Source of the DNA: Clostridia bacterium
GTDB taxonomy: Bacteria; Bacillota; Clostridia; Christensenellales; CAG-138
NCBI GenBank assembly: GCA_017407205.1
Contig: JAFQXA010000024.1
Location: 1-64,000 of the forward strand
Direction: 5' to 3'
Length of the DNA stretch: 64,000 nucleotides
Part shown: positions 43,491 through 57,215 of the stretch, piece by piece
Position numbering within the stretch: the first letter of the stretch is position 1
How the letters are laid out: the number at the start of each line of letters is the position of its first letter
Program-made: the position numbers and the translations under genes
The notes under the pieces: generated by a model
What the model was told of the DNA's origin: nothing
Seen by the model: the letters and a program-made list of their open reading frames with translations, nothing else
The model's database searches: none

Positions 43491-46400
43491 CTAACTTCTG
43501 CATAGCTGTTTTTTATCAAAAAACCAATTTATTTTTTCTCCGCAACTTAAAACGCTTGCAGTTTCTGCGTCTTCGTAACCGATTATGAGTTTTTGCAAAG
43601 AGGCAATATCACGGGAATTCACCTTGCCATCCCTCTTTGTATCGGCAGCTTTTTGTTTAAGCTCATCAAGCGATTCAATATCTACAAGATGTTTCTGGAT
43701 TGCGGCTACATCACGGGAGTTTACTTTACCGTCACAGTTTATATCACCCGTAACCGCAATTTTGTATTCATGTTCGTGTCCGCTTCCGTCAATTACACTA
43801 AGTACAAAGCCCGTAACAATTCTGTCGCCAAGTGCTGCTTCCTCATTGCCTTCATCCATCACGAGTGCATCCGTGTCTTCTGACAGGAACGCATAAAAAT
43901 CCTCTACCGTTGTATTCACATTGATACCGATTACATAGCCGTCATCTGTAAGAGAGCAAGTTGAGTCTTGCTTGAAAACAGGCTTATCTTCGGGAGTTTG
44001 TGTCGGCTCCGTCGTCGGTGTTGCCGTAGGAATCAAAGTGGGCGATACAGTAGGACTCGGTATAGGAGTTACAGTTGCCGTGGGTGTCGCAACAGGAGTA
44101 GGACTCGGTGTCGGCACTGTCTCCTGTGTGGGCTCCGGTGTAGGTGTCGGCGGTATTGTCGGCAAGGGCTTTTGTGTGGGAGGCGGTGTTGGTGTTGTCC
44201 CCTCCGTTTCCCCGGTTGCCACTTCAGCCGGTAATATACCGTACTTATTATAGAAAGTCAATGCTCTCACAAATACACGCATCGAATTGTCATAAGTAAA
44301 CTGTCCTTCATATGAAAGATTGCTCTCACCCGGTAAAGTTACATAACTTGCCGCACGGTTGGAATTCTCGTTCATATATTTTATCTGTCTGTTCGCTATG
44401 TAAAGGTAACCCGGCCTTGTAATCGTCGAGCCTGTAAATGTATGATTGTTGCTTCCCGTAGGCTCTGAACACTTTATATACGATATCAGTGAAGTGTTCG
44501 GTGCACCTATATTTATGTTATAAAGTGCGACGCAAGCCATTCTGTAAAGCGATATTGCCGGAACAGTATAATTGCCTATTTTTACGTTGCTCAAAAGCTC
44601 TCCGCCGTTTGCTTTTGCATAATCATTGACTTTGACAGCTGCATCAACGACCTGCTGCATCGTAAAGTTTGCCAAAGAACCCGCTATTGTCGGAAGCGGT
44701 GTTGGGGCAGGCGGCAAAGTAACAGTTCCCTCTTCGTAAATCTGATATGCTCTTGTTTCGTTTGCCGAGCTATATACATTTACAAAGCACGGGCCATAGC
44801 TTTCGTTAAGTGCTCCGTCAACCGTCAGGAATATCGAAAGTGTTCCGTTTTTGGGAACCAAAGCAGAACCCGTTACCGTAACCTTTTTACCGTCATCCGA
44901 AACAGTACCTTCTCCTTGAACGCCCTTATAGCCTGCAATAGTTGTTGCAATCATGCCATCCTGCATTTCAATAACAACATTTTCAAGCGCAAGCGTTGAA
45001 AAGGCATTATTGATTTTTACTTCAAGAAGTTTCTGCTCTTTTGAGTATGTACTTTTTGCGTAGGCATAAAGACCTTGTCTGAAAAGTGCTAAACCTAAAA
45101 CGCCATCACTTGAAGCAACTTTTCTGAGCTGTTCAATTTCAGCCATCATCGTCTTTGATGTAACATAAGCCGTATCGGCATCTGGAGAAAATGCCTGCAT
45201 ACCCATTACAACCTTGTTACCCATCTTGGCAGCGTTTTCAGCCATTGCCGCCATCCACTGCGGACTTGCCGTATACGTGTAGGAATACGCCATGGGGCAA
45301 ACATAGTCATAAAGTTTTGCTGCATCTTTGAAGTCCTGACCGAATACCATTTTTCCGTATGTATTTGAAGCTGTCTGGTTATCATTTCTGCCTGAAATAT
45401 ACTGATGCCCCTCGTATGCACCTTCAGGCATCAAGGCAGCACTTATTATAATATTTGGTTTAACAGCACGGATTGCATCAACAAGCCCCTGCGCAAACTT
45501 TCTGATATTGTCACAACGCATCTGCATGAAGCGTGTTGCATCTATACCTTCACCATAGCCGCACTCGCCCGATGCTGCCATCCTGAATATCTTTGCAGCC
45601 TGAGCACCCGCGTTGTAATACGTATCATCAACATAACTCTTGAGCGTTGCAACATTGATCCCGTACTCATCTTCCATCTGTTTGATGTTTGCTGTGCTCC
45701 ATCCGTATGCAATGTGATTGTATCTTATATAGTCAAAATGAACACCGTCAATGTCATAGTTTTGTACCATTTCAGCAAGAAGTCTTTGCGTATAGTTTGC
45801 AAAGTTCGGCAAAGTGGGGTCCATTGTTGCCCAGTCATATTCCATTTCACGGCTATTATATCCACGCTTGTAGTGATAAAGCGTTTCTTGGATATGATCT
45901 GCTGCATACGTCTCATCGTTCAACGCTGAAATCCACGCATGAACACGTATTCCGTATTTATGGCCTGCGGTTACCATTTCCTGCAAAACGTCACGGCTTG
46001 TGTTGGTTCTCGCCAAAGGAACAACGCCCTTATTAAAAGCAACCTTTCCTCCGCCGCCTTTTACAAGAAGATAAATATCCGTAACACCGAATTCCTTGCA
46101 ACGCTGGGCAACAGCATTTGCGCCGTTTGATGTAACTTCGCTTGCCCATACCCATTCACCGACAACATCAAACTTCTTCTGTTCAACGCTTCTTTTTACT
46201 TCAGTAATGTTGTTGAAGCCTGCTGCGTAAAGAGCAGACCTTGAAAGCAAGAATTCAAGATTTGTAGTCTGCGATGCCTGCAAGAGCAAACCAGATATGA
46301 CAACTCTGCCAGAAGCAAAGTTTGATACGGAAAGTGCAGCGGTATTTGTCATGTTTGTATACGCGTTCTGATTAACATTAACGGCTGCACCAAGTCCGTT

Positions 46401-47090
46401 TCTCAAATTGCTGTAATACTTGAGCAATATTGTGGGAGACTGTGCTCTTGAATCCTTGATATCCGTCGTTTTTGTTACTTGCGTGAACACGGGCGGTGCA
46501 TCCGTGAAAGCAAGATATTTCACTACAGACTTCATGCCCTTTGTTATTGTATGGCTTGTGTTGCTTGCCGTGAAAACAACTTCACCGCCACCGTGATTCC
46601 ACACAGGATAATCCACCTTGAACCTTACAAGATTCATAAACGTATGTGTGTCACCGTTTTTTGTAAAGCTTTGTGTTGCGGCATACGCACCGCCGCCAAT
46701 ACCGAGGTAGCCACCGCCTGCAGCTACATAATCCTTGATTTTTGCAGCTGCAGTTGTACCCAAAGCGTTCATTACTGTCTTACCCATATTGATTGAAGCA
46801 GAGCAAGCATCGGCAACAATGAGTGTATCATAAGCTGACAGTTTGCCCTGTGCAATCTCATCAGCAGTTATTCTGTCAACAGTAACGCTGTCGATAATCT
46901 CGCCGTCTGCCGTTACCGTATTTTCATCAAACCACTTTAAAATGTCATTTTTAACTTGCTCATGCGTTCCGTCAACACTGAATACCGCAAGCGCAAAACT
47001 CCTGCCTTCTGCAAATGAGAAAGCAGGAATTGTGCCAACTAAGCTGAATAATAAAGTTATTACAAGTATTGTAGAAAGTGTTTTTTTCAT
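43491..47090 (-). CDS. Paralogue: BPL_N-like + GHL10-type hydrolase-like + PMBR-like + dockerin-proximal domain + dockerin
   Basis: 1199 residues. It has the same order as its downstream neighbour and high identity through the first ~970 residues, so it is a tandem duplicate. Signal peptide 1-29; flavodoxin-like domain ~30-300; GHL10-like barrel ~310-685 (DIDGVHFDYIRYN); PMBR-like module ~810-965. A long Pro/Thr linker (~975-1050) and an added ~75-residue domain (DGYVIGINVNTTVEDFYAFL) precede the dockerin (GDINCDGKVNSRD, DTKRDGKVNSRD). About 25 residues beyond the dockerin include two cysteines. It starts one base after the leucine-rich gene stops. Confidence 0.87.
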   Translation of the reverse strand: MKKTLSTILVITLLFSLVGTIPAFSFAEGRSFALAVFSVDGTHEQVKNDILKWFDENTVTADGEIIDSVTVDRITADEIAQGKLSAYDTLIVADACSASINMGKTVMNALGTTAAAKIKDYVAAGGGYLGIGGGAYAATQSFTKNGDTHTFMNLVRFKVDYPVWNHGGGEVVFTASNTSHTITKGMKSVVKYLAFTDAPPVFTQVTKTTDIKDSRAQSPTILLKYYSNLRNGLGAAVNVNQNAYTNMTNTAALSVSNFASGRVVISGLLLQASQTTNLEFLLSRSALYAAGFNNITEVKRSVEQKKFDVVGEWVWASEVTSNGANAVAQRCKEFGVTDIYLLVKGGGGKVAFNKGVVPLARTNTSRDVLQEMVTAGHKYGIRVHAWISALNDETYAADHIQETLYHYKRGYNSREMEYDWATMDPTLPNFANYTQRLLAEMVQNYDIDGVHFDYIRYNHIAYGWSTANIKQMEDEYGINVATLKSYVDDTYYNAGAQAAKIFRMAASGECGYGEGIDATRFMQMRCDNIRKFAQGLVDAIRAVKPNIIISAALMPEGAYEGHQYISGRNDNQTASNTYGKMVFGQDFKDAAKLYDYVCPMAYSYTYTASPQWMAAMAENAAKMGNKVVMGMQAFSPDADTAYVTSKTMMAEIEQLRKVASSDGVLGLALFRQGLYAYAKSTYSKEQKLLEVKINNAFSTLALENVVIEMQDGMIATTIAGYKGVQGEGTVSDDGKKVTVTGSALVPKNGTLSIFLTVDGALNESYGPCFVNVYSSANETRAYQIYEEGTVTLPPAPTPLPTIAGSLANFTMQQVVDAAVKVNDYAKANGGELLSNVKIGNYTVPAISLYRMACVALYNINIGAPNTSLISYIKCSEPTGSNNHTFTGSTITRPGYLYIANRQIKYMNENSNRAASYVTLPGESNLSYEGQFTYDNSMRVFVRALTFYNKYGILPAEVATGETEGTTPTPPPTQKPLPTIPPTPTPEPTQETVPTPSPTPVATPTATVTPIPSPTVSPTLIPTATPTTEPTQTPEDKPVFKQDSTCSLTDDGYVIGINVNTTVEDFYAFLSEDTDALVMDEGNEEAALGDRIVTGFVLSVIDGSGHEHEYKIAVTGDINCDGKVNSRDVAAIQKHLVDIESLDELKQKAADTKRDGKVNSRDIASLQKLIIGYEDAETASVLSCGEKINWFFDKKQLCRS

Positions 47091-47091
47091 T

Positions 47092-49146
47092 TTACGCTTC
47101 CGTTGATTCCTTCTGTTTAATGTTCAAATCTTTTCCAAGAACAATCTTCTGCAAATATGCAAGATCTCTCGAATTTATCTTGCCGTCTTCTGTCACATCT
47201 GCAAGGGCACGGTTTTCACCTTCAAGCTCCTGCATGCCGATAATATGCTTCTGCATGAGTGCAATATCCTTTGAATTTATTTTGTTGTCACCGTTAAGGT
47301 CACCGTCTTTTCCTCCTGTCGGAGGCGGAACCGGCTCGCCTGTGGGCATAGGTGCCGTTGTAGGTGCAGTTGTGGGGTTAAATGTCGGCTCCATAGTAGG
47401 CTCGATTGTCGGCTCTACAGTAGGCTCTATAATAGGCTCTATCGTAGGCTCCACAGTAGGTTCTGCGGTCGGCTCGATTGTAGGCTCTGCAGTAGGCTCA
47501 ATTGTAGGTTCTTCTATCGGATCGTCCGTAGGCTCATCATCACCGGGAGCATCTGCACATTCAAGCTTGTAGCCCCTGAATGTTGTTTCGTCATTGGGCG
47601 CGAAGCTGTCTTTGTGATCATAGCGATAAAAGATGGTCAACCCTTTATTCATGCCCTCAAGTGCATTCGGTGCAAATTCCTGGGGCAAATCGCCCTCGAA
47701 CTCGATCTCAAAAATGTTTTCCGAGTTTGCAAAAGCATACTCACCGATTGTCTTTATTTCAATCGGGAGAAGCACTCTTATAAGGTTTTCACCCTGTGCA
47801 TAGAAAGCGTAATCCCTTATTTTTGTAGTTGTTTGCACTATTTCGCAATCCATAGTCTCTCTTGCAGGGGGGCAAACTATGAGTTCTGTATTATCGCCGT
47901 TATATAAAACGCCGTCATAGGAATTGAAGAATGCGTTACCGGGGATAACCGTTACAGAAGCAAGTGATGAACAGCCCTTGAATACGCCTGTGCCGATAGT
48001 TTCAATACTGTCTGAAACCTCAACGGTTGTGAGACTTATGCAGTCTTCGAGCATAAAGTCATTCATAGCGGTCATCCAAACGCCAAGCTGTATGTTTTCA
48101 AGGCTTGAACAGCCCGAAAATGCGTATGCACCAACTATGTCAACGGATTCGGGAATTGTCATTGTTCTTAAAAGACTGCACTTATAAAACGCATGGCTGC
48201 CTATGTTTGCAAGTGCACCGTAACCGTCCTCACCTGTTTCAAATGCGAAGTCCTCAACTCCTGTACAGCCTGCAAAAGCATAGTCGCGAATTTTCTGAAC
48301 ATCAGCTGAGACAGCAACAGTTGCAAGGGAAGCATTTGACGGACATGCAACCATTTCCGTCATGTCCTTGGTATAAACAATCTGATTGTCGGTTGTGAAG
48401 TTTGCGTTGCCCTCACTTACATAAATGTTTTCAAGTGAGCCGCAGCAGGCAAACGCACCTGCACCGATCTCCGAAACAGAATTTGAAACAGTGATTGCCG
48501 TCAAAGTCGTGTTGCCGTAGAAAGCCTTATCACATATTTTTGTAACGGAAGCAGGCACTTCAAAAGTTGTTACAACAGTTACATCGCCCACACTGCCCAC
48601 ATCCTCCTCAAGCGTAGAGGCTTCTTTAGCGTTTATTGAAGCAACACCTGTAAATGTCTTTACATAGCCTGCAGGATATGTATGGAGCGTTGCACCGTCG
48701 TCTTCATAAAGGACATTGTCTATTATGGAATAATTCATGTTGGAAGCAGAAAACGACATATCATTGAAGCTTGTACAGTTTGCAAAAGCACCCTCACCTA
48801 TTTTTTCAATGCTCGATGAAAGTGTAACCGATGCCAATGAACCGCAATCCATAAAAGCTTCTTTGCCAATCTGTTTTATGCCTTCGCCGATTGTGATTGA
48901 TTCAATATCATTGCAAGCATAAAAAGCACGCTCTGCTATTGCAGTAACGCTTTTTCCGCCAAGTGTGTCCGGGATCGTAACTTTTCCCCTTGCATTCTGT
49001 GCGCACTTTACAATGGTTACGCTGCCGTCACCGTTATCACTGTAGGTATAGTTCCCCTCAACCTCGGCACTCGAAAAAGCCGGGATTACAGCGAGTGAAA
49101 CCGCCATTACCAAAACAGTAATCCATGCAATAATCCTTTTCGTCAT
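47092..49146 (-). CDS. Secreted BspA-type leucine-rich repeat protein with dockerin
   Basis: 684 residues from the ATG at 49146 with GGAGG eight bases upstream; an ATG five codons earlier lacks a site. Signal peptide 1-26 (MTKRIIAWITVLVMAVSL...FSSAE). About a dozen 22-23-residue leucine-rich repeats of the BspA/Treponema type fill ~30-500 (IGKEAFMDCGSLASVTLSSS is one). A Glu-Pro-Thr repeat linker (~530-600, period four to eight residues) leads to a dockerin (GDLNGDNKINSKD, DVTEDGKINSRD). Such proteins usually bind host or polymer surfaces. First gene of the three-gene dockerin operon. Confidence 0.9.
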   Translation of the reverse strand: MTKRIIAWITVLVMAVSLAVIPAFSSAEVEGNYTYSDNGDGSVTIVKCAQNARGKVTIPDTLGGKSVTAIAERAFYACNDIESITIGEGIKQIGKEAFMDCGSLASVTLSSSIEKIGEGAFANCTSFNDMSFSASNMNYSIIDNVLYEDDGATLHTYPAGYVKTFTGVASINAKEASTLEEDVGSVGDVTVVTTFEVPASVTKICDKAFYGNTTLTAITVSNSVSEIGAGAFACCGSLENIYVSEGNANFTTDNQIVYTKDMTEMVACPSNASLATVAVSADVQKIRDYAFAGCTGVEDFAFETGEDGYGALANIGSHAFYKCSLLRTMTIPESVDIVGAYAFSGCSSLENIQLGVWMTAMNDFMLEDCISLTTVEVSDSIETIGTGVFKGCSSLASVTVIPGNAFFNSYDGVLYNGDNTELIVCPPARETMDCEIVQTTTKIRDYAFYAQGENLIRVLLPIEIKTIGEYAFANSENIFEIEFEGDLPQEFAPNALEGMNKGLTIFYRYDHKDSFAPNDETTFRGYKLECADAPGDDEPTDDPIEEPTIEPTAEPTIEPTAEPTVEPTIEPIIEPTVEPTIEPTMEPTFNPTTAPTTAPMPTGEPVPPPTGGKDGDLNGDNKINSKDIALMQKHIIGMQELEGENRALADVTEDGKINSRDLAYLQKIVLGKDLNIKQKESTEA

Positions 49147-49182
49147 TTTGTGCACCTCCATATATTTTATTTACCTAATCTT

Positions 49183-49304: not shown

Positions 49305-49333
49305 TTGACAACAAAAAAGCGTGGTGGTACAAT
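49305..49333 (+). promoter_or_regulatory. Promoter of the aromatic amino acid operon
   Basis: TTGACA, a 17-base spacer and TACAAT. The start point is predicted near 49340, about 22 bases before the leader peptide ATG and 225 before the DAHP synthase gene. Confidence 0.8.
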
Positions 49334-49361
49334 TCTCGTAATCCATGAAGGAGAAAGTTTG

Positions 49362-49463
49362 ATGAATTCAAAAATCTTCGCAGCTGAATATCGTTTCTTT
49401 AGCTTTACTTACTATTACTTTAGTAAGTCTGCTTTGCGTTTGGCTGAAAATAAGGGTTTTTGA
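49362..49463 (+). CDS. Phe/Tyr-rich leader peptide of the aro operon
   Basis: A 33-codon reading frame, ATG at 49362 and TGA at 49461, with AAGGAG exactly eight bases before the start. Residues 10-20 are YRFFSFTYYYF, eight aromatic codons in eleven. In total six Phe and four Tyr codons are present and no Trp. It sits between the promoter and an intrinsic terminator ahead of the Phe/Tyr biosynthetic operon, as expected of an attenuation leader peptide. It is too short for usual gene finders. Confidence 0.85.
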   Translation: MNSKIFAAEYRFFSFTYYYFSKSALRLAENKGF

Positions 49464-49518
49464 GTTTTAGATGATGATTAAAGGCTTTTACCCCACAGCT
49501 AAGCGCTGTGGGGTTTTT
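49436..49518 (+). promoter_or_regulatory. Attenuator: terminator and competing antiterminator of the aro operon
   Basis: The terminator stem ACCCCACAGC (49490-49499) pairs with GCTGTGGGGT (49505-49514), loop TAAGC, then five T residues. The alternative is GCGTTTGGCTG (49436-49446, inside the leader ORF), which pairs over 11 continuous bp, two of them G-U, with CAGCTAAGCGC (49496-49506), destroying the terminator. GGGT (49454-49457) can also pair with ACCC (49490-49493) inside that structure. The last codon of the Phe/Tyr cluster ends at 49421, 15 bases before the antiterminator strand, so a ribosome stalled there would leave it free. One reaching the stop codon would cover it. Confidence 0.8.
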
Positions 49519-49565
49519 AATTTTGATTATTATATTAAGTTTTAATTATTCAGGAGGAAATAAAA

Positions 49566-50573
49566 ATGATCGTAATTTTAAAGCAGAACCCCGATGCTAA
49601 CCAGCTCAACCGCCTCATTTCATGGCTTCGCGAAAAAGGCATTGATGTTCACGAGACAATCGGTGCATCACAGACTATACTCGGTCTTATAGGTGACACA
49701 CATCATCTTGACATGGACCTTATAACAGCACTCGACATAGTTGATGACGTTCGCCGTGTACAAGAGCCCTACAAGAACGCAAACCGCAAGTTCCATCCTC
49801 GAGACACGGTCATAAAGGTTGGCGACACGCAAATAGGCGGAGGCAATTTAACTCTCATAGCAGGCCCCTGCTCCGTAGAAAGCGAAGAACAGATTTGTGC
49901 AATAGCCGAGAGTGTAAAGAAAAGCGGTGCGACCATGCTTCGCGGCGGTGCTTTCAAGCCCCGTACTTCCCCCTACTCATTCCAGGGTCTTCGCGGTGAG
50001 GGCTTACGCTTGCTCTCAATGGCAAAAAAGCTCACAGGGCTTCCGATAGTAACCGAGATTATGGACATTTCCCAGCTTCCGCTTTTTGACGATGTTGACG
50101 TAATCCAGGTCGGAGCAAGAAATATGCAGAACTTCGAGCTTTTGAAGGCGCTCGGTCAGACGCATAAGCCGATACTTTTAAAACGCGGTTCTTCCTGCAC
50201 ATATGAAGAGCTTTTGATGAGCGCAGAATACATAATGGCAGGCGGAAACGAACAGGTCATACTTTGCGAGCGCGGTATCCGCACATTTGAAAACTACACA
50301 AGAAACACGCTTGACGTTGCAGCAGTTCCCGTACTCAAACAGCTTTCACACCTTCCCGTGATAATAGACCCCAGCCATGCAACAGGCAAGTCAGCACTCG
50401 TTGATTCACTCTCATGTGCAGCCGTTGCAGCAGGTGCTGACGGACTTATAATCGAAGTTCATAACGACCCTGCTCACGCTATGTGTGACGGACCTCAGTC
50501 AATCCGTCCCGAGGCTTTTGATGCACTTGCCAAACGCCTCCGCATAATATCCGATGCAGTTTCTGCAAAATAA
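49566..50573 (+). CDS. aroF: DAHP synthase (3-deoxy-7-phosphoheptulonate synthase), type I beta
   Basis: 335 residues. The N-terminal ~70 residues form the ferredoxin-like/ACT-type regulatory domain seen in the Thermotoga enzyme. The barrel has [50 protein letters not shown] and [10 protein letters not shown] with the PEP and metal sites. It condenses PEP with erythrose 4-phosphate, the entry to the shikimate pathway. AGGAGG precedes the ATG. It is first in the operon after the attenuator and is probably also feedback regulated through the N-terminal domain. Confidence 0.96.
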
Positions 50574-50591: not shown

Positions 50592-51425
50592 ATGAAAATC
50601 GGTATAATCGGCTTGGGCCTTATAGGCGGCTCAATGGCAAAAAGCATAAAAGCGCATACAGAAAACGCAGTTCTCGGTTTTGACACCAATTCCGAAACGC
50701 TGACAAAAGCACATCTCATTCATGCAATCGACGATGTTCTCACGGTGAAAAACTTGTCAGAATGTGATATAGTAATGATAGCGATAGCACCAAAAGCAAC
50801 TCTTAATTGGGTTGCTGAGAACGCACCGCATCTTGAAGGAACAGTCCTTATCGACCTGTGCGGTATAAAACGCTACCTCCATGACGACATATCACACTTG
50901 GCGCAAGAAAACGGATTTACATATATAGGCGGACATCCCATGGCAGGCAAGGAGGTAAGCGGATTTGAAAACGCTTCCGATCAGCTCTTTAGCGGAGCGT
51001 CAATGATACTCACTCCCGACAGTGCCTCCAAAATAGATGACCTTGAATATTTAAAGCACTTTTTCCTTGAAACAGGCTTTGAAAAAGTTACATTTGCAAG
51101 CTGTGAAGAACACGACAGGATAATATCATACACCTCCCAGCTTGCACACATAACCTCAAGTGCTTATATAAAATCCCCCACAGCGCAGATACACAGCGGT
51201 TTTTCGGCAGGAAGCTATAAGGATATGACGAGAGTTGCAAAGCTTGATGAAGAGCTCTGGACGGATCTTATGCTCGGCAATGCCGACTTTTTGGCAGGAG
51301 AACTGACACTTTTAATAGAAAATCTGAACAAATACCTTGAAGCACTCAAGGCAGGCGACGCACAAGCCTTAAAGGAACTTCTAAAGGAAGGCCGTTTGAA
51401 GAAACTCACAGCCGGAGGAGATTGA
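50592..51425 (+). CDS. tyrA: Prephenate dehydrogenase
   Basis: 277 residues. The Rossmann start GIIGLGLIGGSMAKSIK binds NAD(P). GGHPMAGKEVSGFENA and ISYTSQLAHITSSAY are the catalytic-region motifs. It oxidatively decarboxylates prephenate to 4-hydroxyphenylpyruvate, the tyrosine branch. It has no chorismate mutase or ACT domain attached. It lies 18 bases after DAHP synthase. Confidence 0.95.
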   Translation: MKIGIIGLGLIGGSMAKSIKAHTENAVLGFDTNSETLTKAHLIHAIDDVLTVKNLSECDIVMIAIAPKATLNWVAENAPHLEGTVLIDLCGIKRYLHDDISHLAQENGFTYIGGHPMAGKEVSGFENASDQLFSGASMILTPDSASKIDDLEYLKHFFLETGFEKVTFASCEEHDRIISYTSQLAHITSSAYIKSPTAQIHSGFSAGSYKDMTRVAKLDEELWTDLMLGNADFLAGELTLLIENLNKYLEALKAGDAQALKELLKEGRLKKLTAGGD

Positions 51426-51426
51426 T

Positions 51427-52494
51427 ATGATAAAAAAGCGTGTAAGTATAAATGTAGGCGCAGGTTACGATGTTCACATAGGTCCCGCATTGCTTGATAC
51501 TTGCGGTGAAACTCTAAGGCAAGTTTTGGGAGAGTGCCGTCTTGCGATAATAACCGACTCAAACGTAGAAAGGCTCTATCTCGACAAAGTGAAAAAGAGT
51601 CTTTCATCAAGCGGTTTTGAATCTGTTTCTTTAACATTTCCGGCAGGTGAATCAAGCAAAAACATTTCCACGCTTTCCGCTATTTTGGAATTCTTAGCTG
51701 AAAACAACTTCACACGCAAGGATGCGGTAGTGGCACTTGGCGGAGGTGTCGTCGGTGATATTTGCGGATTTGCATCATCCGTATTCCTTCGCGGTATACG
51801 CTATGTGCAGATTCCGACAACCTTGCTTTCGGCAGTTGACTCATCAGTCGGTGGAAAAACCGCTATCGACCTTGAAGCAGGTAAAAACCTTGCAGGTGCT
51901 TTCAAGCAGCCCGAGGTTGTAATTTGCGATACCGATACACTTTCAACACTCAATGAAACCGAGCTTTCAAACGGTGTAGCAGAATCCGTAAAATACGGCA
52001 TACTTTTCGACAAAGAGCTTTTTGATGAGTTTGCTAAAAGCGATTTAAAATCGCTCCTTGATGATAAGGAAAAGCTTGTTAACATGATAGCACGGTGCGT
52101 TTCCCACAAGGGCAGAATCGTAGAAAAAGATGAGTTTGACAACGGTGAAAGGCGACTTTTAAACCTCGGGCACACAATAGGTCACGCTGTTGAAAAATGC
52201 AGTTCTTTCTCTGTTCCCCACGGTCACGCAGTTGCAATAGGAACAAGCATGATTGCACGCGCAGGCGAAGAAAAGGGGCTCACAGAATGCGGCACATTTG
52301 ATGCTGTGAAAACCGTTCTTGAAAAGTACGCTCTTCCCACATCGTGTGAGTTTTCTTCCTGCGAGCTTTTGTCTTCAAGCCTCAACGACAAAAAGCGAAA
52401 AGGCAATAAAATCGGGCTTGTTATAATTGAAAGTATAGGAAAATGCTACATAAAAGAAGAACCCATCGAAGCTTTGGAAAGTTATATTAAGTAA
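51427..52494 (+). CDS. aroB: 3-Dehydroquinate synthase
   Basis: 355 residues. Motifs: FPAGESSKNISTL, GGGVVGDICGFASSVFLRGI, PTTLLSAVDSSVGGKTAID and the zinc site LNLGHTIGHAVE plus PHGHAVAIG. It converts DAHP to 3-dehydroquinate. GGAGGAG precedes the ATG. One base after tyrA. Confidence 0.97.
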   Translation: MIKKRVSINVGAGYDVHIGPALLDTCGETLRQVLGECRLAIITDSNVERLYLDKVKKSLSSSGFESVSLTFPAGESSKNISTLSAILEFLAENNFTRKDAVVALGGGVVGDICGFASSVFLRGIRYVQIPTTLLSAVDSSVGGKTAIDLEAGKNLAGAFKQPEVVICDTDTLSTLNETELSNGVAESVKYGILFDKELFDEFAKSDLKSLLDDKEKLVNMIARCVSHKGRIVEKDEFDNGERRLLNLGHTIGHAVEKCSSFSVPHGHAVAIGTSMIARAGEEKGLTECGTFDAVKTVLEKYALPTSCEFSSCELLSSSLNDKKRKGNKIGLVIIESIGKCYIKEEPIEALESYIK

Positions 52495-52498
52495 TACC

Positions 52499-53758
52499 AT
52501 GAATATTGAGATTATCCCATCACATACAAAAGGCATTTTACCGGCAATAAGCTCAAAATCGGACGTGCATCGCATAATGATATGCGCGTCCCTTTGTGAT
52601 GCTCCGACAGTAATAAAAAACGTATCACTTTGTGACGACATACTTGCAACGTTAAATTGCATTGAAGCACTCGGCGCACGCGTTGATATAGACAAAGATG
52701 CTCGCACTTTGACTGTGTTCCCAAGCAAAAACAAAATTGAGCACGCAACACTTGATTGCAGGGAAAGCGGATCAACCTTGCGTTTCATGCTTCCCGTAGC
52801 GGCGGCACGCGCAAAAAGCGTTCATTTTACAGGCTGTGGCCGTCTCCCAAGCCGTCCTATCGGAAGCCTTGTTGACACAATGCAGGAAAACGGCATCTCC
52901 TTTTCAGCAAAAAGCTTGCCGCTTGACATTAAAGGTACGCTTTCATGCGGAATATATACACTCCCCGGTAATATCAGCTCACAGTATGTAACGGGGCTCT
53001 TGATTGCACTTTCTGTAACCGAGGGAGAGAGCAAGATTTTTCTTACCTCCCCCCTTGAATCTGCATCATATGTTGACATGACACTTTCAACGCTCAAAAT
53101 TTTCGGAGCAAAAACAGATATAATCGAAAACGGATACATAATACACGGCACAAAAGCGCTCACCTCGCCAAAAAACATAGTTGCAGACGGTGACTGGTCA
53201 AACTCTGCATTCTTCCTGGCGTGCGGTGCAATAAATGGCAATGTAACCTTGTCAGGTCTTGACATAAACTCAAACCAGGGCGATAAAAAAATAATTGAAG
53301 CATTGCAAAAATTCAATGCTTGTATCAAAATAGAAGAAAACGAAATAACCGTTTCAAAAAGCAAATTAAAAGCCACCCAAATAAACCTTGAGGACACGCC
53401 GGATATGCTTCCCATTCTTGCAGTTCTTGCCTCATACTCAGAGGGCGAAAGCAAGTTCGCGGGCGCAAAAAGGCTCCGTCTTAAAGAGAGCGACCGTCTT
53501 GTGTCCGTCACAAACATGATAAACTCTCTCGGCGGAAAAGCCACCATACACGATGACGGAATAAGTGTTACAGGCACCCCCTTAAAAGGCGGAACCGTAA
53601 ATTCTGAAAACGACCATCGCATAGTAATGGCTGCTTCCGTTGCAGGTATAAGCACGCAAGGCAATGTTACCATATCAGGTGCTGAAGCGGTAAATAAATC
53701 GTACCCGACATTCTTTGAAGATTTTAAAGCTTTAGGAGGAAAATTCCATGTCATCTGA
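52499..53758 (+). CDS. aroA: EPSP synthase (3-phosphoshikimate 1-carboxyvinyltransferase)
   Basis: 419 residues. Signature regions: SKSDVHRIMICASL (shikimate site), DCRESGSTLRFMLPVAA, LPSRPIGSLVD, SSQYVTGLLIAL and LRLKESDRL. It adds enolpyruvate from PEP to shikimate 3-phosphate. The ribosome binding site is weak and the gene probably relies on coupling to aroB, four bases upstream. It overlaps aroC by 11 bases. Confidence 0.97.
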   Translation: MNIEIIPSHTKGILPAISSKSDVHRIMICASLCDAPTVIKNVSLCDDILATLNCIEALGARVDIDKDARTLTVFPSKNKIEHATLDCRESGSTLRFMLPVAAARAKSVHFTGCGRLPSRPIGSLVDTMQENGISFSAKSLPLDIKGTLSCGIYTLPGNISSQYVTGLLIALSVTEGESKIFLTSPLESASYVDMTLSTLKIFGAKTDIIENGYIIHGTKALTSPKNIVADGDWSNSAFFLACGAINGNVTLSGLDINSNQGDKKIIEALQKFNACIKIEENEITVSKSKLKATQINLEDTPDMLPILAVLASYSEGESKFAGAKRLRLKESDRLVSVTNMINSLGGKATIHDDGISVTGTPLKGGTVNSENDHRIVMAASVAGISTQGNVTISGAEAVNKSYPTFFEDFKALGGKFHVI

Positions 53759-54824
53759 ATACGGAAAAAACATAAAGATATCAATATTCGGCGAATCACA
53801 CGGCAAGGCAATCGGTGTTAGTATCGACGGTATCCCTGCAGGCGAAGAAATTGACATGGACACGCTTTTATCTTTCATGGCAAGGCGTGCTCCCGGCAGA
53901 AGCAAGCTTGCAACAAAAAGATGTGAAAGTGATACCCCCGTATTCCTTTCAGGGCTGACAAACGGAATAACAAACGGTTTCCCTATCTGTGCAATCATAG
54001 AAAACAGCAATGCACATTCTTCTGACTATGCAGGCTTTGAAATTACACCTCGCCCCTCCCACGCAGACTATGTCGCTTCTCTGCGTTATAACGGCTTTGC
54101 CGATATGCGTGGAAGCGGTCATTTTTCGGGCAGGCTCACAGCTTCCCTTTGCATAGCGGGCGGTATAGCAAAACAGATACTTGCAAAACAAAATATATTT
54201 GTCGGTGCACATATTTCATCAATATGCAATGTAAAAGATTCTTCATTCCCCCTTTATCCCACAAGCGAGCTTTTCAACGAAATTGCAAGCAAGGAGATTG
54301 CCGTAATAGATGACGAAAAGGGCGAAAAAATGAGAGCAGTCATTGAGCAGGCGGCAAGCGAGTGCGACTCGGTTGGCGGAACTGTTGAGTGTGCCGTTGT
54401 AGGTTTCCCCGCGAGTATCGGCTCTCCCATGTTTGACGGAATTGAAAACCGACTTGCCTTGGCACTCTTTGGAATTCCCGCTGTAAAAGGTCTTGAATTT
54501 GGCAGCGGATTTTCTGCAAGTGAAACAAAAGGCTCACAAAACAACGATGCATTTGAAGTTCAAAACGGCAAAGTCGTAACGAAAACAAACAATAACGGCG
54601 GAATAATCGGCGGAATAAGCAACGGTATGCCGATAACGCTTCGTGTGGCATTCAAGCCAACGCCTTCAATAGCCAAGAAGCAAGAAACAGTAAATCTTGA
54701 AACACTTGAAAACACAACCATCTCGATAGGCGGAAGGCACGACCCCTGCATAGTTCTTCGTGCAGTAGCGGTTGTTGAAGCAGTTGTTGCTTCAGTTATG
54801 CTTGACTTACTCCAGGAAAGGTAA
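53748..54824 (+). CDS. aroC: Chorismate synthase
   Basis: 358 residues. FMN and substrate motifs: GESHGKAIGVSIDGIPAG, RAPGRSKLATKR, RGSGHFSGRLTASLC, and the C-terminal GRHDPCIVLRAVAVVEAV. It converts EPSP to chorismate. The GGAGG used for its start lies inside the end of aroA. Confidence 0.97.
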   Translation: MSSEYGKNIKISIFGESHGKAIGVSIDGIPAGEEIDMDTLLSFMARRAPGRSKLATKRCESDTPVFLSGLTNGITNGFPICAIIENSNAHSSDYAGFEITPRPSHADYVASLRYNGFADMRGSGHFSGRLTASLCIAGGIAKQILAKQNIFVGAHISSICNVKDSSFPLYPTSELFNEIASKEIAVIDDEKGEKMRAVIEQAASECDSVGGTVECAVVGFPASIGSPMFDGIENRLALALFGIPAVKGLEFGSGFSASETKGSQNNDAFEVQNGKVVTKTNNNGGIIGGISNGMPITLRVAFKPTPSIAKKQETVNLETLENTTISIGGRHDPCIVLRAVAVVEAVVASVMLDLLQER

Positions 54825-54830
54825 AATAAT

Positions 54831-55973
54831 ATGGATCTTCTTGATATCAGAAACAGAATAGACGCAATAGATGACAAGCTTCTCCCCCTCTTCCTTGAGC
54901 GTATGTCGCTCTCAAAAGAGGTTGCCGAGTATAAAAAAGCAAACAACCTCCCCATTTTGAACCGCACACGCGAACGCGAGATTTTAAAAAGCGTTGCCGA
55001 AAAAAGCGGTGATTTGGAGCAGTTTGCACACCGTCTTTACACAACGATATTTGAACTAAGCCGTGCCTATCAGGACACATTGTGCACACAAGGCGCTTCT
55101 CTTTCCGAGGAAATTTCAAAAGCGCTTGAAAATACATACTCTGCTTTTCCAAAAACAGGTGTTGTAGCCTGCTTCGGCACAGAGGGTGCAAATGCTCAGC
55201 TTGCAGCGGATAAAATGTTCCCACGCGGAGAGCTTGTTTTCTTCAAAACCTTTGAGGGCGTTTTCGATGCCGTTGAAAACGGGCTTTGCGAATTCGGTAT
55301 AATTCCGTTTGAAAACAGCTCAAACGGCTCGGTAAGAGAAACATATGAGCTCCTTTTAAAAAAGAATGTTCATATTGTACGCTCAGAACGCCTTTGCATA
55401 AGACATGAGCTTTTGGCAAAAAAGGGCGCGCGCATTGAGGATATAAAAGAAATCTACTCCCATCCCCAGGCAATCGGACAATGCAGTAGGTTTTTAAAAG
55501 AGCTTGGCAGTAAGGTAAAAATAACTCCCTGCGAAAACACAGCTCAGGCGGCGCAGTATGCTGCAAGCTCAAAAGATAACAGCATTGCTGCAATAGCTTC
55601 ACACGCAAATGCAGAGATTTATAATCTTGCCTCAATTGCAACATCAATACAGGATAGCGATAACAACTACACACGCTTTATATGCATTACGAAAACACCG
55701 AGGCTCTACCCCGGTGCAAACCGCATAAGCCTTATACTCGCCTGTCAGCACAAGCCGGGTGCACTTTATGAAGTGCTTGCAAAATTTGCAGCACTCGAGA
55801 TCAATCTTTTAAAGATTGAAAGCTATCCCATTTTAGGACATGACTTTGAATTTATGTTCTTTTTCGAACTTAGTGCCGACATTACGGACGAAAAGACGGT
55901 AAGTATGCTCGAAAGCCTGAACGGAAGCTGTGAAACTTTCAAGTTCCTCGGCAACTATGAGGAGGTTTTATAA
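54831..55973 (+). CDS. pheA: Chorismate mutase / prephenate dehydratase (P-protein)
   Basis: 380 residues in three domains: AroQ-type chorismate mutase (1-~85; RNRIDAIDDKLLPLFLERM), prephenate dehydratase (~110-285; FGTEGANAQLAADKMF, PFENSSNGSVRETYELL, NNYTRFICI), and a C-terminal ACT domain (~293-370; KPGALYEVLAKFAALEINLLKIESYP) that in the family binds Phe for feedback. Mutase fusion to the dehydratase, not to TyrA, places chorismate mutase on the Phe enzyme. Confidence 0.96.
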   Translation: MDLLDIRNRIDAIDDKLLPLFLERMSLSKEVAEYKKANNLPILNRTREREILKSVAEKSGDLEQFAHRLYTTIFELSRAYQDTLCTQGASLSEEISKALENTYSAFPKTGVVACFGTEGANAQLAADKMFPRGELVFFKTFEGVFDAVENGLCEFGIIPFENSSNGSVRETYELLLKKNVHIVRSERLCIRHELLAKKGARIEDIKEIYSHPQAIGQCSRFLKELGSKVKITPCENTAQAAQYAASSKDNSIAAIASHANAEIYNLASIATSIQDSDNNYTRFICITKTPRLYPGANRISLILACQHKPGALYEVLAKFAALEINLLKIESYPILGHDFEFMFFFELSADITDEKTVSMLESLNGSCETFKFLGNYEEVL

Positions 55974-57215
55974 ATGAAACCCCTTTTCGGACTTATCGGC
56001 AAAAAGCTTGCTCACAGTTATTCTGTGCCCATTCACCACGAAATGGGCAACTTTGCATATCGCCTTTTCGAGCTTCCGCCCGATGAGCTTGAGTCCTTCT
56101 TAAGACAGGAAAACCTCGGTGGCGTTAACATAACGATCCCTTACAAAACAGAGGTAATGAAGTTTTGCGACACCATCTCAAAAGAAGCTCAGGAGATAGG
56201 CTCCATAAACACGATAGTAAACAAAGACGGTAAGCTTACAGGCTACAATACCGACAAGTACGGCTTTGAGTATATGCTCAGGCATAAAGCCATAAGCCTT
56301 GAAAACAAAAAAGTTCTTGTGCTTGGAAGCGGCGGTGCATCAAAAACGGCTGTTTTCTGTTCAAAGCTTGCAGGTGCAAAAGAAATTGTGATAATCTCAC
56401 GAAGCGGTGAGAATAATTACTCAAACATTCAAAAACACAGAGATGCCGATGTAATAGTAAATACCACCCCCGTGGGAATGTTCCCCGATAATTATTCCTC
56501 CCCCGTCTCTCTCGACAGTTTTGAAAGGCTTGAAGCGGTTGTTGACCTTGTGTATAACCCGTTAAAGACTGCCTTGATAATCGAAGCAGAAAAACGCAAT
56601 ATAAAAACAACCGGTGGGCTTACAATGCTTACCGCACAGGCAAAAATGGCAGAAGAGCTTTTCTTCGATACTTTTCTCGACGATGGGTTGATAACGAGAA
56701 TAACCGATAATCTTTATAAAAAGGCCTCAAATATTGTCCTTATCGGTATGCCTGGAAGCGGTAAAAGCACCGTTGGCAAAATACTTTCTTTGATTTCCGA
56801 AAAAGAGGCTTTTGATACCGATGAGCTTATAACCCAAAAAGCAGGCAGAACGCCCAAGGAAATAATCACATCGGACGGTGAAAGCGTATTTCGCAAGATA
56901 GAAAGCGAAGTAATTCGTGAGGTTTCAAAGGAAAGCGGAAAAATAATAATCACGGGCGGTGGTGCTGTCACAAGAAAAGACAATTATATTCCGCTTCACC
57001 AGAACGGACGGATATATGAAATAAAGCGTGATATAAACACTTTACCAACAGATGATAGACCTCTTTCCAAGGATTTTGATACCCTTTTAAAAATGCAGAA
57101 AGAAAGACAACCCATGTATGAGTTTTTCCGAGATGCATTTGTTTTGAACGATTCAAGCCCCCAAGAAGTTGCAAATAAGATTTGGAGTGATTTTAATGAA
57201 AATACTTGTTATTAA
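55974..57215 (+). CDS. aroE-aroK: Fused shikimate dehydrogenase - shikimate kinase
   Basis: 413 residues. The N-terminal part (1-~250) is AroE: GLIGKKLAHSYSVPIH, GGVNITIPYK, GYNTDKYGF, the nucleotide loop LGSGGASKTA, and GGLTMLTAQA. The C-terminal part (~255-413) is a shikimate kinase with the P-loop GMPGSGKSTVG, FDTDELI, FRKIESE, TGGGAV and DDRPLS lid. It carries out two consecutive steps, dehydroshikimate to shikimate 3-phosphate. It starts directly after pheA. Confidence 0.95.
   Translation: MKPLFGLIGKKLAHSYSVPIHHEMGNFAYRLFELPPDELESFLRQENLGGVNITIPYKTEVMKFCDTISKEAQEIGSINTIVNKDGKLTGYNTDKYGFEYMLRHKAISLENKKVLVLGSGGASKTAVFCSKLAGAKEIVIISRSGENNYSNIQKHRDADVIVNTTPVGMFPDNYSSPVSLDSFERLEAVVDLVYNPLKTALIIEAEKRNIKTTGGLTMLTAQAKMAEELFFDTFLDDGLITRITDNLYKKASNIVLIGMPGSGKSTVGKILSLISEKEAFDTDELITQKAGRTPKEIITSDGESVFRKIESEVIREVSKESGKIIITGGGAVTRKDNYIPLHQNGRIYEIKRDINTLPTDDRPLSKDFDTLLKMQKERQPMYEFFRDAFVLNDSSPQEVANKIWSDFNENTCY

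Follow-up and report, generated by a model that had tools for sequence, protein, structure and literature searches.

The window, meaning the whole 64,000-nucleotide stretch of DNA that was analysed, carries on its plus strand an operon that begins with aroF, encoding DAHP synthase (49566-50573, TIGR01361). It continues with tyrA (prephenate dehydrogenase, 50592-51425), aroB (3-dehydroquinate synthase, 51427-52494, TIGR01357), aroA (EPSP synthase, 52499-53758, TIGR01356), aroC (chorismate synthase, 53748-54824, TIGR00033) and pheA (chorismate mutase/prephenate dehydratase with CM_2, PDT and ACT domains, 54831-55973). The last gene is an aroE-aroK fusion (55974-57215), whose product has a shikimate dehydrogenase at its N-terminus and a shikimate kinase at its C-terminus. 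Overall, the operon comprises the shikimate pathway and the Tyr and Phe branches, without the Trp branch. On the minus strand, two genes (43491-47090 and 47092-49161) encode large and probably secreted proteins, both with type I dockerin domains at the C-terminus. BspA-type leucine-rich repeats occur in one and glycosyl-hydrolase-like domains (GHL10) in the other; the pair suggests a cellulosome-like assembly in the source MAG.

Ahead of aroF, a putative promoter (49305-49333, plus strand) reads TTGACA-17-TACAAT with a TG before the -10 box and agrees with the consensus at 11 of 12 bases; TG..TA..AT boxes of this kind also occur upstream of several homologous leaders. An approximate ribosome-binding site, GGAGAA (49350-49355), lies a few bases 5′ of the ATG at 49362, which opens a leader peptide ORF of 33 codons (49362-49463, MNSKIFAAEYRFFSFTYYYFSKSALRLAENKGF). 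Codons 10-20 (49389-49421, YRFFSFTYYYF) are the sensor codons, eight of which specify Phe or Tyr and none Trp, a composition that matches an operon with the Tyr and Phe branches and no Trp branch. The last clustered aromatic codon, F20, occupies 49419-49421 and the leader stop, TGA, 49461-49463. Between this ORF and aroF lies an intrinsic terminator, ACCCCACAGC-TAAGC-GCTGTGGGGT followed by the T run TTTTAATTTT (49490-49514), the only one that the terminator search found, with 0.1 expected.

Homologous leaders before aroF

Relatives of aroF were taken from species genomes and from the window's own family, and the upstream DNA was readable at 95 loci. A short ORF near aroF in which 6 or more of 14 residues are aromatic was present at ~70 of these. 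When at least 7 aromatic residues were demanded, 62 of 94 loci had such an ORF; the reverse strand gave 4 of 94 and shuffles 1% (control range 4-7 of 94 for the reverse strand and 1-3.5% for shuffles). The aromatic positions of the sensor are kept in the relatives, with F and Y exchanged for each other. An automatic search placed a terminator between the leader ORF and aroF at 60 of 69 loci, and several others were recognized by eye. Most of the homologous leaders precede an operon in which aroF is followed by tyrA, aroB, aroA, aroC and pheA in this order. Among the carriers are Oscillibacter valericigenes Sjm18-20 (L005) and numerous MAGs of Oscillospiraceae and other Clostridia; loci L090 and L091 have leaders and L096 and L097 have none. 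One entry of the automatic leader list (L079) has a GTG start and is probably no true leader, and a weak leader match in the same genome as the window (L121) was discarded, as no aro gene there follows an aromatic run of this kind. A search for a phage copy of the leader found none. Aromatic leader-like ORFs also precede aroF on MAG contigs labelled Lentisphaerae, Victivallales and Thermoguttaceae (L025, L030 and L077), which may be due to horizontal operon transfer, a binning error or independent origin.

Because no Rfam family reached its gathering score in the window, including the T-box (RF00230), Phe_leader and Trp_leader, there appears to be no T-box before the operon. Six T-boxes occur elsewhere in this genome and T-boxes were present in all 41 genomes searched, which would suit control of the operon by a T-box that binds uncharged tRNA directly. 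None lies on the aro contig among the matches listed, however, and the leader region measures only ~175 nt and contains a translatable ORF, so that we regard T-box control as extremely improbable.

Covarying pairings in the leader RNA

The 11 bases at 49436-49446 (strand 2, GCGTTTGGCTG, 5′-GCGUUUGGCUG-3′) can pair with either of two partners. With 49496-49506 (strand 3, CAGCTAAGCGC, CAGCUAAGCGC) they form the candidate antiterminator, for which the first-pass annotation had given 11 pairs with two G-U, and the sequence agrees: the pairs are consecutive and the G-U pairs are 49439-49503 and 49442-49500. That strand 3 includes the terminator left arm, loop and start of the right arm also holds, as its 11 bases comprise 4 from the inner end of the left arm, all 5 of the loop and 2 from the start of the right arm. 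Because dinucleotide shuffles of 49422-49489 pair equally well with the terminator tip in 24 of 5000 cases (~0.5%), the evidence from this single sequence is moderate; the comparative evidence for the 2:3 pairing, drawn from homologous leaders, is strong.

In a swap test, pairing energies were computed for the stretch that follows the aromatic cluster, with the terminator tip of its own locus and with the tips of other loci. Over 59 loci the mean was -17.0 kcal/mol for own tips and -12.05 for swapped tips (sd 0.37), relatedness being not fully corrected in this comparison, and confining the swaps to GC bins gave a z of about -10. The aromatic cluster and the sequence upstream of the start were flat when used as decoys, and the stretch between strand 2 and the terminator paired worse with its own tip than with swapped ones. 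The 40 nt before aroF (z -10) are not a valid decoy, because short-spacer leaders have the terminator right arm there. A tentative second antiterminator helix, GGGT at 49453-49456 with ACCC at 49490-49493, appeared in the folds and in some close relatives and is unsupported across the set (swap test z = -2.0, 59 loci).

Pair counts were made on fixed-length strand extracts from 28 aligned leaders, in which 85% of the cells pair. The first-pass annotation had proposed a covariation analysis of 49436-49446 with 49496-49506 and had named a lack of compensatory changes as the refuting outcome; 7 of the 11 pairs are changed on both sides, compared to a shuffle mean of 3.8, and only 1 of 500 shuffles scored as high. 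The covariation score was 0.341, compared to 0.169 (sd 0.021) in shuffles that keep shared ancestry, and at most 0.10 when the register was slid by 1-3 bases. Examples of the varied pairs are GCGTTT/AAACGC (L082), GAGTTT/AAACTC (L016), TTTGGCTG/CAGCCAAA (L007) and GGTATGCA/TGTATACT (L014). Because the swap test and the pair-count covariation agree, the 2:3 antiterminator is, on this comparative basis, a real, selected pairing. Descent alone is an unlikely cause of the covariation, given the slid-register controls and the variety of pair solutions.

The alternative partner of strand 2 is strand 1 (CAGCTGAATATCGT, 49381-49394, plus strand, codons 7-11), which resembles the terminator tip CAGCTAAGCGC and emerged from growing-transcript folding and the swap test. 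Without a ribosome, the 1:2 hairpin folds in transcripts ending at 49450-49495. Its swap test gave -18.3 for own and -14.0 for swapped partners (sd 0.43, z -9.8, decoy -0.8; relatedness not fully corrected). In close relatives the pairing is mostly conserved, less covarying and imperfect in several, and distant relatives offer replacements such as GCATAC/GTATGC (L014) and AGCGAA/TTCGCT (L089). The two-stem scheme with which the locus had been described thus stands for the competition between 2:3 and the terminator, and the mutual exclusion of these two is borne out by covariation and growing-transcript folding, but the scheme overlooked the covarying partner 49381-49394 of 49436-49446. Because strands 1 and 2 pair, the conserved peptide ends (AAEY..., GLAEN...) are best explained as constraints of RNA pairing, which accounts for an otherwise odd conservation.

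Ribosome position and RNA folding

For the ribosome, an E. coli-like footprint was assumed and the leading edge was set at the start of the A-site codon + 12. When the RNA beyond the ribosome was folded for transcripts ending at 49506-49510, the antiterminator probability was ~1.0 for hungry codons 10-22 and ~0 from hungry codon 24 on. In the full-length RNA at equilibrium the terminator beats the antiterminator, also when a ribosome is stalled. Because the terminator is more stable once its right arm is complete, control by the attenuator would be kinetic, and kinetic control is a feature of other attenuators as well. Without a ribosome, the antiterminator was favoured at equilibrium in transcripts ending at 49506-49508, though the strong 1:2 hairpin forms earlier.

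The distance from the cluster's final aromatic codon to the start of strand 2 has a median of 17 nt (quartiles 12.5-18.5, 59 loci), and at 49 of 59 loci a ribosome stalled on the sensor codons leaves strand 2 free. The earlier proposal that a stalled ribosome frees strand 2 therefore gains from both the folding and the conserved spacing. As to its figure of 15 bases on either side of strand 2, 49436 is the 15th base after F20, and 14 bases separate 49446 from the stop.

Translational coupling or reinitiation is another way in which leader ORFs can act. The ORF might serve aroF mainly by this route, and the hairpin would then be a constitutive partial terminator; aroF begins 102 nt past the leader stop. 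We consider this very unlikely, since neither the covariation of 2:3 and 1:2 nor a near-constant distance from the codons to strand 2 would be required.

The position of the stop is far less regular. Over the 59 loci, the 3′ end of strand 2 is found anywhere between 42 nt upstream and 28 nt downstream of the stop. In the window, a ribosome at the stop covers ~49444-49473, if an E. coli-sized footprint is assumed, and hence ~3 of the 11 bases of strand 2, namely the ones in competition with the terminator arm. The overlap of such a ribosome with strand 2 is at least 4 bases at 34 of 59 loci and at most 3 at 25. The view that a finishing ribosome masks strand 2 by virtue of the stop distance consequently holds in part here, but does not carry over to the set, in which the spacing varies. 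At seven loci (L021, L039, L041, L069, L071, L073 and L075) the stop comes early and strand 2 lies beyond it, with pairing to the terminator tip kept. Since the stop thus varies in nature, the part played by the finishing ribosome can be tested by comparing leaders.

A further alternative is that a small molecule or a protein, in a riboswitch like the trpB motif or an attenuator of TRAP type, uses the terminator and antiterminator, the ORF being incidental. The trpB motif (RF04312) matches 49420-49525 over its full length below threshold, and those who described the motif were unable to rule out a classic attenuator for it (PMC11109978). As an identity for this leader we rejected the motif, as the match has 26.5 bits against a gathering score of 59, and no Rfam family, RF04312 included, reached its gathering score for the leaders at 15 related loci. 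Dozens of leaders that have otherwise diverged moreover keep the aromatic codon run, with F/Y exchanges, at a near-constant distance from strand 2, and the alignment contains no conserved aptamer-like core beyond the pairing strands and codons. Taken together, these points make a riboswitch or protein-binding attenuator very unlikely.

Proposed attenuation and its relation to known systems

The computed features, namely the ORF, the terminator, the covarying 2:3 and 1:2 pairings, the conserved spacing from the cluster to strand 2 and the operon itself, lead us to predict that the aro-tyr-phe operon is very probably governed by a ribosome-mediated (Yanofsky-type) transcription attenuator, which presumably senses both Phe and Tyr; ribosome stalling, ribosome-polymerase coupling and termination efficiency are the parts of this model that we infer. 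RNA polymerase would start at about 49340 and a ribosome would load on the leader ORF. A shortage of charged tRNA-Phe or tRNA-Tyr would stall it in codons 10-20, with its leading edge at or before ~49431 and strand 1 covered by it or close to it, leaving strand 2 free to pair with strand 3 as the latter is made. The 2:3 pairing would then delay the terminator hairpin, and the operon would be transcribed. If both charged tRNAs are plentiful, the ribosome would be traversing strand 2 as the polymerase makes strand 3 and the right arm, and the terminator would form. Behind the ribosome, or when none has loaded, strand 1 would take strand 2, again favouring the terminator. The likelier routes to the terminator are the passage of a ribosome through strand 2 and the re-pairing of 1:2 in its wake.

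In Oscillospirales and other Clostridia, the leaders may even constitute an undescribed, clade-wide family of Phe/Tyr attenuators, an idea that we put forward tentatively and hold to be somewhat short of probable. An early stretch of such leaders would copy the terminator tip and a single strand would pick between the two look-alikes; the stop would have no fixed role, and the switch would consist of the passage of the ribosome past codons 22-24 together with re-pairing behind it.

The layout of E. coli attenuators served for comparison. The leaders of E. coli trpL, pheL/pheA and his are alike in having a peptide rich in the product amino acid, mutually exclusive 1:2, 2:3 and 3:4 pairings and a terminator before the first gene. 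The leader in the window differs in that strand 1 precedes the sensor codons, strand 2 usually lies inside the ORF, the position of the stop is not fixed in leaders of this type and neither Trp_leader nor Phe_leader of Rfam matches. It also mixes Phe and Tyr codons before a joint shikimate-Tyr-Phe operon, in Clostridia.

Aromatic amino acid genes of Firmicutes are usually thought to be under T-box, TRAP or repressor control, and T-boxes are in general a commoner solution in this phylum than ribosome-mediated attenuation. In the Bacillus cereus group, T-box control has been described for Tyr synthesis (PMC2494555). Ribosome-mediated attenuation has been reported in Firmicutes for the hisZ/hisS* leader peptides in Bacilli (PMC2965389) and for the leucine-rich ilv attenuator of Staphylococcus aureus (PMC5794164), which resemble the present case in mechanism and concern other amino acids and genes. 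In Acholeplasma, aroF is preceded by the uORFC-13-1 motif, in which a uORF with Phe codons stands ahead of an intrinsic terminator and which has also been proposed to act by attenuation; its 24 representatives come only from Acholeplasma and unassigned environmental sequences (PMC8632094). That motif has at least one Phe codon, whereas no Phe/Tyr cluster is described for it, so that by its description it is set apart from the leader in the window (PMC8632094).

For control of Oscillospirales aro operons by Phe/Tyr leader peptides, no paper came up in searches of an open-access library, which makes novelty provisional: the mechanism is classical, and the combination of taxon and genes is apparently new. 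That many uncultured gut Clostridia should place a Phe/Tyr attenuator supported by covariation before entire shikimate operons would widen the known range of the mechanism and would provide ~70 loci with an annotation of their regulation. In the trpB motif RF04312, an antiterminator occupies the right shoulder of a hairpin and a terminator follows; the motif likewise lies near amino acid genes of Firmicutes (PMC11109978). Its associated genes are mostly ABC transporters and it is regarded as a riboswitch candidate (PMC11109978), in contrast to the aro operon of the window. In view of the match at 49420-49525, it is worth asking whether some members of the trpB motif are leader-peptide attenuators.
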